Shown: one piece after another, positions 22,659 through 26,118 of the stretch
Position numbering within the stretch: position 1 is the first letter of the stretch
How the letters are laid out: every line of letters begins with the position of its first letter
Assembly: GCA_013697635.1 (NCBI GenBank)
Contig: JACCWM010000160.1
Coordinates: 1 to 35,117 of the forward strand
DNA from: Lujinxingiaceae bacterium
GTDB lineage: Bacteria > Myxococcota_A > Bradymonadia > Bradymonadales > Bradymonadaceae
Direction of reading: 5' to 3'
Length of the DNA: 35,117 nucleotides
Program-made: the position numbers and the translations under genes
The notes under the pieces: generated by a model
What the model was told of the DNA's origin: nothing
Seen by the model: only the letters and a program-made list of their open reading frames with translations
Database searches by the model: none

Positions 22659-24155
22659 ATGCAAAGCCGCCTCGTCTGCCAATCCAGCGCCCAGGTCGAA
22701 GCCGACCTTTTGGTCATTCCGATCACGCGCGCCGCCTTCGACGCGCGCGCGCAAGGCGCGCTTGCCGGCATCAGCGCGACGCTCGACTTCGACATCTTCG
22801 AGGAGGCCGCCAGCGAGCGCTTCGAAGGCAAAAAGGGCCAGAGCTTCTTGCTTCGTGGCCTCAAAAACCTCGGCACGCGCCGCGTGCTCCTGCTCGGCGC
22901 CGGCGACGTCGCCCAGCTCCAGGCGGGAAACCTGCGCCAGGTCGGTGTCACGGCAGCCAAGCGTGCCCGCACGCTTCGCGCCTTAAGCGTGGCGATCGCC
23001 CTGCCCGTCATCTTGCCCGAGGGCCTCGACGACCAGAGAATAGCCGGCCAGCTCCTCGAGGGCTTTTGCCACGGCGCCTACGCCTTCGATCGCTACGTCT
23101 CGGCGCGCGAGGACCGCTTCGAGGGCAGCCAGCACCTGATCATCGTCGCACCCGAAGGCGCCGCGCTCAACGACGACGCACTGACCCGAAGCCGCGTGCT
23201 GGCCGACGCGATCTGCATGGCCCGCAACCTCGTCAACGAGCCGCCCGCAGCCATGACCCCCAACGAGCTCGCCCTTCGCGCCGAGGCGATCGCCACAACG
23301 CGCGGCCTCGAACACCACATTTTGGGCCCCACCGCCCTCGAAGAGGGCCAGTTCAACCTGCTTTTGGCCGTCGGCCGCGGCAGCGACAACTCACCGCGCA
23401 TGATCCACCTGATCTACCGCCCCGAGGGCGAGGTCAAACGCCGCATCGCCTTTGTCGGCAAGGGCGTCACCTTTGACACCGGCGGCTACAGCCTCAAGCT
23501 CAACATGGCCAACATGCACAGCGACATGGCCGGCGGCGCCGCCGTGCTCGGCGCCGCCGATGCCATCGGCGCCCTCAAACCGGCCGGCCTCGAGATCCAC
23601 TTCATCGTGCCCGCCGCCGAGAACTGCATCAACGGCGCCGCCATCAAGGTCCAAGACATCGTGCGCGGCTACGGCAAGAAGACCGTCGAGATCCTCAACA
23701 CCGACGCCGAAGGCCGCCTGATCCTGGCCGACGCCCTGGCCTACGCCCAGGAGCAAGACGTCGACACTATCATCGACCTCGCCACCCTCACCGGCGCCTC
23801 CGTCGTCGCCCTTGGCGACTACACCGCCGCCCTCTTCAGCTCCAGCGAGTCGCTCGCAAGCTCCCTGCTCTCGTCCGCCCGCGCCAGCGGCGAAGACCTC
23901 TGGCGCATGCCCCTGACCGAGCGCCTCGACAAGCAACTCGACAGCCCCGTCGCCGACATGAAGAACCTCGGCAAACGCGAAGGCGGCGCGATCAGCGCCG
24001 CGCTCTTCCTTCGCCGCTGGGTCAACATCGACGACTGGGCCCACCTCGACATCGCCGGCCCCGCCTTCATGAGCACCGACGACGAATACTACGGCCAGGG
24101 CGCCACCGGCTACGGCGTCGCCACCCTCGTCGACTACGCCTGCCGCCTGGCGTAG
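22659..24155 (+). CDS. pepA: Leucyl aminopeptidase, family M17 (PepA type)
   Basis: The 498-aa di-metal aminopeptidase removes N-terminal residues from peptides in the cytoplasm. Metal and catalytic motifs are intact: VGKGVTFDTGG (Lys268, Asp273), the later HSDMAGGAA with the metal-binding Asp, and NTDAEGRL (Asp349, Glu351, Arg353). The N-terminal domain (residues 1-165) is the divergent part, as usual. The ATG has AAAAGG 8 nt ahead. It lies 36 bp after the second ABC permease, so it is probably the last gene of the kinase-ABC operon. Downstream lies a satellite array rather than a terminator. Confidence 0.95.
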   Translation: MQSRLVCQSSAQVEADLLVIPITRAAFDARAQGALAGISATLDFDIFEEAASERFEGKKGQSFLLRGLKNLGTRRVLLLGAGDVAQLQAGNLRQVGVTAAKRARTLRALSVAIALPVILPEGLDDQRIAGQLLEGFCHGAYAFDRYVSAREDRFEGSQHLIIVAPEGAALNDDALTRSRVLADAICMARNLVNEPPAAMTPNELALRAEAIATTRGLEHHILGPTALEEGQFNLLLAVGRGSDNSPRMIHLIYRPEGEVKRRIAFVGKGVTFDTGGYSLKLNMANMHSDMAGGAAVLGAADAIGALKPAGLEIHFIVPAAENCINGAAIKVQDIVRGYGKKTVEILNTDAEGRLILADALAYAQEQDVDTIIDLATLTGASVVALGDYTAALFSSSESLASSLLSSARASGEDLWRMPLTERLDKQLDSPVADMKNLGKREGGAISAALFLRRWVNIDDWAHLDIAGPAFMSTDDEYYGQGATGYGVATLVDYACRLA

Positions 24156-24158
24156 TCC

Positions 24159-24381
24159 CGGTCACGATCACGTTCACGTTCACGTTCACGATCACGTTCA
24201 CGTTCACGTTCACGTTCACGTTCACGTTCACGTTCACGTTCACGTTCACGGTCGCGGTCGCGTTCACGTTCACGTTCACGTTCACGTTCACGTTCACGGT
24301 CGCGTTCACGTTCACGTTCGCATTCTCGGTCGCGTTCTCGTTCTCGGTCGCGGAGCCGTTCTCGTTCTCGGCCTCGGGCCT
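24159..24381. repeat. Hexanucleotide satellite array, TTCACG type
   Basis: More than 220 bp are made of a 6-bp unit TTCACG and variants (ATCACG, GGTCGC, TTCTCG), beginning 4 bases after the pepA stop codon. Long runs of perfect TTCACG are broken by single-base variants, which suggests growth by slippage followed by drift. Both strands are free of stops in some frames, giving fake proteins of repeating Arg-Ser, Arg-Glu or Asn-Val dipeptides. I read it as non-coding. Confidence 0.93.
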
Positions 24382-24410
24382 CGGGCGGCCGTAGCTGAGT
24401 CCGTGTTCGA

Positions 24411-24526
24411 GACCGTGATCGCCTTCGTGATCGTGATCGTAATCGTGATCGCGACCGTGATCGCGACCGTGATCGCGACCGTGATCGCGACCGTGATCGC
24501 GACCGTGATCGTGATCGTGATCGCGT
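24411..24526. repeat. Second satellite array, GTGATCGCGACC type, opposite in sense
   Basis: It includes five perfect tandem copies of the 12-bp unit GTGATCGCGACC (24445-24504) flanked by GTGATC repeats. On the plus strand this resembles the first array read on the minus strand: CGCGACCGTG and CGTGATCGTG here are the complements of CACGGTCGCG and CACGATCACG there. The two arrays are therefore an imperfect inverted pair separated by about 30 bp. Confidence 0.9.
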
Positions 24527-24644
24527 GTGTCGGGTGCCCTGACACCCCGACCTCGCGAAAATCCTGCCTTCCACGCAAGATAACACGACCTTACGCGTCT
24601 CTCGGGCAGTCTTGGCATGGCAGTTTTAGCACCCGAACCAATGC

Positions 24645-24741
24645 GCACCGGCGCGCCTTGGCGCGAGGTCCGGTGCTGTATCTGCTCGACGAGCCTGGGG
24701 CCTTGTCGCCCCAGGCGGCCCCCATGGCAGGCAAGCCTGCC
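24645..24741. other. Run of three GC-rich hairpins in non-coding DNA
   Basis: Three inverted repeats follow each other. First, outer arms GCACCGG and CCGGTGC enclose the inner stem CGCGCC-TT-GGCGCG (24645-24676). Second, GCCTGGGGC and GCCCCAGGC lie around a CTTGTC loop (24693-24716). Third, GGCAGG and CCTGCC lie around CAAG (24726-24741). No T-tract follows any of them, so this is not a standard terminator. No supported reading frame covers the region. It may encode a structured RNA, or be a remnant of mobile DNA. Confidence 0.5.
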
Positions 24742-24796
24742 GGCCGCAATCTGGAGCGCAACGCTGGAGACTGGGCCTGCCTGGCCTCGATCAAAA

Positions 24797-25023
24797 TCAC
24801 AGCGAATTAACGTCCAGATCGATGGTCGGTCGATTTCGCGGTATTCGAATACCATCTGGATCGATGGCGGCTCGCCAGAATGGTATTCAATTACCGATTT
24901 GTTCAGTGGCGAGTCGATCATTTTGGTATTCGAATACCATCTGGATCGATGGCGGCTGGTCTCTCCCGTATTCAAATGACGTTTTTATCGGGCACTGCCA
25001 GGAAAAAACGCTATCTGAATACC
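24797..25023. repeat. Decayed 42-43-bp tandem repeat carrying a 14-bp palindrome
   Basis: Units start near 24797, 24840, 24882, 24925, 24967 and 25010, a spacing of 43, 42, 43, 42 and 43 bp. The perfect palindrome GGTATTCGAATACC is at 24840-24853 and 24925-24938; variants are at 24882 (GGTATTCAATTACC), 24967 and 25010, with a faint match at 24797. The two perfect copies share 33 identical bases (24840-24872 and 24925-24957), and a GATCGATGG core recurs in the first, second and fourth units. The spacing is four helical turns, so the sites would lie on the same DNA face. The array ends 144 bp ahead of the oxygenase start. Confidence 0.8.
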
Positions 25024-25064
25024 ATTTTGCAAATCCCTCTCACCACCACCCCACGCCACGACGA

Positions 25065-25092
25065 TTGCATTTTCCCCAACATCTGCTATCAC
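25065..25092 (+). promoter_or_regulatory. Candidate promoter of the oxygenase gene
   Basis: TTGCAT and TATCAC are spaced by 16 bp, with a TG one base ahead of the -10 (extended -10). The predicted start lies about 70 nt before the coding region. The palindrome array ends 42 bp upstream of it, a normal position for activator or repressor sites. Confidence 0.45.
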
Positions 25093-25167
25093 TGCGCCAG
25101 CAAGACAAACCCCCGTTTTGTCTGGCAATCCGACCGCTTACCTACATGTCGTCAAGGAGTAGAAGTC

Positions 25168-26118
25168 ATGGCCGAGCAGCAGACCATTCCCGTAGTCGAT
25201 CTTTGCGAATACACCCAGGGTGACCCGGCGGCGCGCGCAGCGTTCGTGCAAAAGATCGGCGACTCGCTCAAGGGTTGCGGCTTTGTGGCGATCGAGGGTC
25301 ACGGCGTCGACACGGAGCTGCTCTACGAGAACTACGATCTGTTCAAGGCCTTCTTCGCGCTCGAGACCGAGACCAAGCGTCGCTACGAAGACACCGCTGG
25401 TGGCCGCCAGCGTGGGTACACGTCATTTGGTGTCGAGCACGCCAAGGACAGCAAGAAGGCCGACCTCAAGGAGTTCTGGCACGTGGGCCGCGAGTTGGCG
25501 ACCGACCACCCGATCTACGGGCGCATTCCGGCCAACGTGTGGCCCGAGGAGGTCTCGGCGCTGCGCGAGAAGGCGCTGGCGCTCTACGACGCGATGGAGG
25601 CCTCGGCCATCGTCATGCTCAAGGCGATCTCGTTGTACCTGGGAAAAGACGAAAATTTCTTGCCGGACATGATTCAAGACGGCAACAGCATCATTCGTAT
25701 CATCCACTATCCGGTGTGTGACGGCTTCGACGAGCCGGGCGTGATGCGGGCTGCTGCCCACGAGGACATCAACCTGATCACCTTGCTGCCCGAGGCCACG
25801 CACTCCGGCCTCGAGCTGCTCGAGAAAGACGGCACGTGGCTGGCGATTCCCTCGCTCAAGGGCCAGATGATCGTCGACTCGGGCGACATGCTCGCGCGCA
25901 TCACGAACAACGTGCTGCCCTCGACGACCCACCGGGTGGTCAACCCCCAGGGCGAGGTCACGGACCGCTACTCGATGCCCTTCTTTGTGCATCCTCACCC
26001 GGACCAGGTGCTCGAAGTGCTCGAGAGCTGCCTTGCGCCGGGCGAAGAGCCCAAGAGCGCGCCGATCACCGCAGAAGAGTTTCTCTTCGAGCGTCTTCGC
26101 GAGATCGGACTTAAATGA
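25168..26118 (+). CDS. 2-oxoglutarate/Fe(II)-dependent oxygenase, isopenicillin-N-synthase fold
   Basis: The 316-aa protein shows the domain order of the family. The N-terminal DIOX_N-like part has IPVVDLCEYTQGD and GCGFVAIEGHGVDTELL. The catalytic jelly roll has the metal triad HxD...H: His and Asp in AAHEDINLITLLPE and the distal His in STTHRVVNP, followed by the co-substrate-binding RYSMPFF (Arg and Ser). Family members hydroxylate, desaturate or cyclise small molecules; the substrate is not predictable from this sequence. I placed the start at ATG 25168 because AAGGAG lies 8 nt ahead. The frame is open upstream through the repeat array, but that part is non-coding repeat sequence. Confidence 0.9.
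   Translation: MAEQQTIPVVDLCEYTQGDPAARAAFVQKIGDSLKGCGFVAIEGHGVDTELLYENYDLFKAFFALETETKRRYEDTAGGRQRGYTSFGVEHAKDSKKADLKEFWHVGRELATDHPIYGRIPANVWPEEVSALREKALALYDAMEASAIVMLKAISLYLGKDENFLPDMIQDGNSIIRIIHYPVCDGFDEPGVMRAAAHEDINLITLLPEATHSGLELLEKDGTWLAIPSLKGQMIVDSGDMLARITNNVLPSTTHRVVNPQGEVTDRYSMPFFVHPHPDQVLEVLESCLAPGEEPKSAPITAEEFLFERLREIGLK

Follow-up and report, generated by a model that had tools for sequence, protein, structure and literature searches.

The window analyzed here, 35,117 nucleotides from a Lujinxingiaceae bacterium, contains a short non-coding element (copy A, Table 1) lying between an M17 leucyl-aminopeptidase gene (window 22659-24155) and an oxygenase gene. Relatives partly or wholly keep the gene order kinase, ABC transporter genes, permease, oxygenase, DUF3352, ABC ATPase and FtsX permease. 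The M17 gene is found between the permease and the oxygenase in none of the compared relative loci, where it is either absent or located elsewhere. In the window, this same interval is occupied by two short-unit satellites (24155-24525) as well as the M17 gene and the palindromic element, and their joint presence suggests that insertions have been taken up here. The first satellite, which is intergenic and directly follows the M17 gene (24155-24371), consists of ∼30 copies of the hexamer TCACGT/TTCACG, with the variants TTCGCG and TTCTCG. The second follows the hexamer array directly (24401-24525) and is built from ∼8 copies of the 12-bp unit CGTGATCGCGAC. The GC profile sets the element apart from the DNA on its left, at ∼47-53% versus ∼60-69%.

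The element is organized around a 14-bp palindrome. Two perfect copies of GGTATTCGAATACC, placed 85 bp apart by the original prediction, are indeed present at that distance (sites 1 and 3). The original prediction also proposed six sites in phase, and five of these hold: sites 1 to 5 match GGTATTCGAATACC at 14, 12, 14, 10 and 11 of 14 bases, with start-to-start spacings of 42, 43, 42 and 43 bp, and they are the top five scores for this sequence within 24700-25120. Scores as high as the four in-phase ones jointly occurred in 0 of 2,000 dinucleotide shuffles, and the single-site rates in the same number of shuffles were 0 for site 2, 0.0025 for site 4 and 0.0005 for site 5. The sixth proposed site, at ∼24797, matches at only 5 of 14 positions, a score equalled by 57% of dinucleotide shuffles and therefore at chance level.

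Table 1. Coordinates of the palindromic element, its parts and the adjoining oxygenase gene (window positions)
Feature	Position	Strand	Description
Whole element, copy A	24773..25034	.	262 bp, non-coding; 82% identical to G000:C86:15568-15829 = L059:7569-7830
Unit 0	24787..24822	.	outer arms TCGATC ... GATCGA only; palindrome core unrecognisable (5/14); direct-repeat family D5
Site 1	24840..24853	.	perfect palindrome GGTATTCGAATACC; copy B = ACTAATCGAATACC
33-bp stretch	24840..24872	+	exactly equal to 24925-24957 in copy A; the counterparts in copy B differ from each other at 7/33 positions
Site 2	24882..24895	.	GGTATTCAATTACC, 2 mismatches; copy B = GGTATTTAATTACC
Site 3, extended dyad	24914-24949		TCGATC-N4-TGGTATTCGAATACCA-N4-GATCGA; inverted repeat I4
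Site 3	24925..24938	.	perfect palindrome GGTATTCGAATACC; copy B = CGTATTCGAATACC
Site 4	24967..24980	.	CGTATTCAAATGAC, 4 mismatches; copy B = CGTATTCGAGAGAC
Site 5	25010..25023	.	GCTATCTGAATACC, 3 mismatches; copy B = GCTAATTGATAACC
Possible oxygenase promoter	25065..25095	+	TTGCAT ... TGCTATCAC; outside the element, just to its right; from a by-eye upstream comparison
Oxygenase gene	25168..26118	+	2OG-Fe(II), isopenicillin-N-synthase-like family (DIOX_N + 2OG-FeII_Oxy); downstream of copy A

The leftmost position is nevertheless part of the array. While the palindrome is absent there, the flanking arms of the unit are kept: the motif TCGATC-N24-GATCGA, 36 bp end to end, occurs at unit 0 and likewise around site 3, and this half-unit was recovered by the repeat search as a direct-repeat family. 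Shared outer arms at unit 0 and site 3 imply a repeat unit longer than the palindrome, of ∼42 bp. Counted outward from its centre, the site 3 dyad is symmetric at 14 of 20 positions. Tandem Repeats Finder likewise reported a 42/43-bp array at the palindrome region, and the 33-bp identity said to reach beyond the palindrome proved exact between the units of sites 1 and 3. Within the array, the palindrome is the part common to the degenerate units.

The array is a mere part of a larger element with a second genomic copy, which the original prediction had overlooked. A search of the 6.2-Mb assembly with this region returned one other convincing place, on contig C86 (copy B). The alignment of copies A and B spans 262 bp and is broken by two single-base gaps, both close to the left end; its last 202 bp are gap-free. 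Homology ends sharply on both sides, and nothing clear aligns past the ends. Copy A lies between the M17 aminopeptidase and oxygenase genes, while the neighbours of copy B are pepP (aminopeptidase P, minus strand) and a small lipoprotein-like ORF (plus strand). Each copy is upstream of the gene on its right and runs in the same direction as that gene, at 133 bp from the oxygenase start and ∼80-160 bp from the candidate starts on C86. No terminal inverted repeats or target-site duplication were seen by eye at the aligned ends, where 18% divergence may have eroded duplications and the exact ends are uncertain. No transposase adjoins either copy, no regulator gene was recognised beside either one, and no replication, partition, integrase or phage gene was recognised adjoining them.

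Comparison of individual units fixes the order of events. The five sites are present in both copies, in register and without indels. Over 40 bp, units at the same position are 82% (unit 1), 85% (unit 2), 85% (unit 3), 75% (unit 4) and 72% (unit 5) identical between copies, while units at different positions are mostly 35-62% identical; units 1 and 3 reach 70-82%. Because same-position units are the most alike and the sites remain in register, the array was complete before it was copied. Array formation thus preceded copying.

In the whole genome, a 39-position profile of the unit recovered the ten units, the same palindromes read on the reverse strand, and one weak match at C119:78374, which was discarded as isolated. 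Since the profile finds only the two arrays and this lone match, such sites do not form a regulon, and the element has two copies only in an assembly that is 99% complete. No BLAST match to the 262-bp element was obtained in 20 other genomes of the family, and a profile of the 206-bp core gave no convincing match in another 378 genomes of the phylum, nor in the class. One profile match (G042:C161, E = 0.007) was taken as chance, being a gapped alignment with no palindromes and no 42-bp period. Plasmid and phage records gave no match to the element, nor did viral contigs in exact-pattern scans, which would miss diverged copies. Five single-unit pattern matches in GTDB genome contigs were rejected, as none has a second unit and, by our own estimate from base counts, about two are expected. 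A literature search found no mention of the core sequence.

The original prediction had offered, as one of two explanations, an operator cluster dedicated to the oxygenase. This reading is disfavoured: the palindrome and the array are absent upstream of every oxygenase orthologue in the family (58-78% identical proteins), the unit is also missing upstream of pepP orthologues, and neither the rest of this genome nor its relatives show any enrichment of GGTATTCGAATACC. This absence, which the original prediction itself had named as refuting evidence, holds at family level, with oxygenase orthologues at most 78% identical and none from the same genus. The oxygenase may also have a promoter of its own. 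TCTGTTATGTG-like motifs were noted by eye at a comparable place before the start codon in several element-free orthologues (e.g., L016, L017, L019, L025), and this recurring motif may be the conserved promoter of this oxygenase. A strict sigma-70 consensus scan made no call at the corresponding window position; if the promoter is correctly placed there, the gene has its own promoter without the array.

Between the two copies, the palindromes carry no detectable additional constraint. Differences fall at 12 of 70 palindrome positions and 25 of 132 spacer positions (Fisher P = 0.85; with two sequences the power is low), and substitutions are not clustered. The proposal that the palindromic part is best kept holds among units inside one array and fails between genomic copies. 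Symmetry declines from 26/35 pairs in copy A to 22/35 in copy B, and is weaker at three of the five sites in B. Both copies keep the four-turn phasing, but at the local indel rate the lack of indels over such a length is unremarkable. At ∼0.05 gaps per substitution, a rate calibrated on family intergenic DNA, the 37 substitutions over 202 bp predict ∼1.9 indels, so that about one in six such stretches would have none (P(0) ∼0.16); as proof of a spacing constraint, it was rejected as not significant after this calibration. One finding runs counter to this, namely the 33-bp stretches of units 1 and 3 (identical in A, 7/33 differences in B; P = 0.011, uncorrected). It fits either constraint on copy A, with copy B decaying freely, or gene conversion within A.

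Our preferred reading, with a probability of about one half, is that the element is a relic, present in low copy number, of a protein-binding region that had multiple sites and a mobile or foreign origin. Its history would begin with a unit of ∼42.5 bp (a TCGATC arm, a GGTATTCGAATACC core and a GATCGATGG arm) that was amplified in tandem. The resulting array would probably have presented a dimeric protein with binding sites lined up along one helical face. The setting of this amplification would have been an ancestral locus, possibly a cis-acting region belonging to a plasmid, phage or transposon. Once complete, the array would have been moved or copied as a single block to two unlinked intergenic places, and the two copies would since have drifted to their present identity. 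Today the element would be without function at the oxygenase gene. The observations fit a short dispersed element whose array was made elsewhere, since a discrete, sharp-ended block of 262 bp is found at two unlinked loci; it is from the two copies only that we infer mobility. Several points weigh against this reading, namely the lack of an adjoining transposase and of visible terminal inverted repeats or target-site duplication, the count of two copies with no same-genus genome compared, the placement of both upstream of a co-oriented gene, as a regulatory cassette would be, and the retention of two perfect, identical sites in copy A.

Among known kinds, the element comes closest to short intergenic repeats, a loose class. 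Its REP/BIME and REP-derived miniature elements (overview in PMC3733652) are short, non-coding, intergenic, palindromic units, clustered and found at unlinked loci, and the present element shares each of these properties. It differs in having two copies only, units that run in the same direction and a fixed 42.5-bp period; neither copy adjoins a RAYT-type transposase, and terminal inverted repeats were not seen. The element is not assigned to any of the defined families, whose marks are terminal inverted repeats, a known tag (such as GTAG/CGTC), high copy number and a transposase. It shows that a helically phased, seemingly purpose-built operator array can belong to a low-copy dispersed element, so that a location in front of a gene says little about regulation.

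Ranked next is a shared operator cassette that still works, which is possible but on balance rather unlikely. A dimeric repressor or activator encoded elsewhere would bind the sites, four turns apart, cooperatively and control both the oxygenase and the C86 lipoprotein-like gene, the regulatory region having been duplicated together with its sites. Homotypic operator clusters for dimeric regulators consist of 14-18-bp dyads at whole-helical-turn spacing directly upstream of a gene. The dyads here are likewise whole-turn spaced and directly upstream of a gene, in both copies, with identical site spacing and no indel over 202 bp; the perfect sites and identical 33-bp units of copy A could also reflect constraint there. 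The element differs from such clusters in that the sites are not conserved upstream of orthologues and are missing from all family orthologues examined, no further genome sites or nearby regulator were recognised, and no site-specific constraint was detected, the palindromes being no better conserved than their spacers and less symmetric at three B sites. The lack of indels would arise by chance with the probability given above, and unit identity in A is explained equally well by gene conversion. The more specific proposal of a transferable control cassette is doubtful; here the 262-bp block, with its phased dyads for a putative dimeric DNA-binding protein, would have been inserted as a unit in front of two unrelated genes and would have brought both under the same regulator inside one genus. 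If the cassette is still bound by protein, it would exemplify a ready-made multi-site regulatory block copied between genes.

The second explanation of the original prediction, a duplicated or decayed repeat array, does not hold as simple drift in place. Its local form, in which slippage upstream of the oxygenase produced a minisatellite whose unit includes a palindrome by accident, is improbable. Such an origin would account for the array reported by Tandem Repeats Finder, for the 33-bp identity between units 1 and 3 and for the further tandem repeats just upstream (24155-24525). Against this, the palindrome is what the degenerate units have in common, and the whole array recurs at the unlinked C86 locus with the same spacers and the same succession of degenerate units, so that at least one of the two arrays arose elsewhere than where it now lies. 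Copy B thus largely refutes the local minisatellite.

A specific version of the relic reading, in which the element is an iteron-like or centromere-like remnant of the replication or partition region of an integrated plasmid or phage, appears less likely still. Plasmid iterons and partition centromeres consist of repeated units that resemble binding sites and are set at even intervals in AT-rich DNA. The element matches them in its AT-rich, evenly spaced phased palindromes with arms, and insertion as a block also fits this version. Unlike them, it has chromosomal-type gene surroundings with no nearby rep/par gene; beside neither copy was a replication, partition, integrase or phage gene recognised, and plasmid, phage and viral collections gave no match.

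Transcription of the element into a structured non-coding RNA or an attenuator is very unlikely and was rejected: on either strand its RNA folds more stably than shuffled sequence (z -5.6 and -5.5) and there is an imperfect hairpin at ∼24968-25022, but good folding is expected of repeated palindromes by construction, the main-stem arms break without compensation when A and B are compared by hand (e.g., GGTATT to ACTAAT at site 1, with the partner unchanged), and no Rfam match lies in 24500-25300.

Coding potential was likewise rejected, the differences between copies being distributed by phase as 16, 12 and 9 over the 202 ungapped positions, with no clear third-position pattern. Downstream of copy B (L059:7913-9348, on C86), the lipoprotein-like ORF contains a D/V/E-rich stretch; after it comes a protein carrying a CTHRC1 C-terminal domain (E 1.7e-11).
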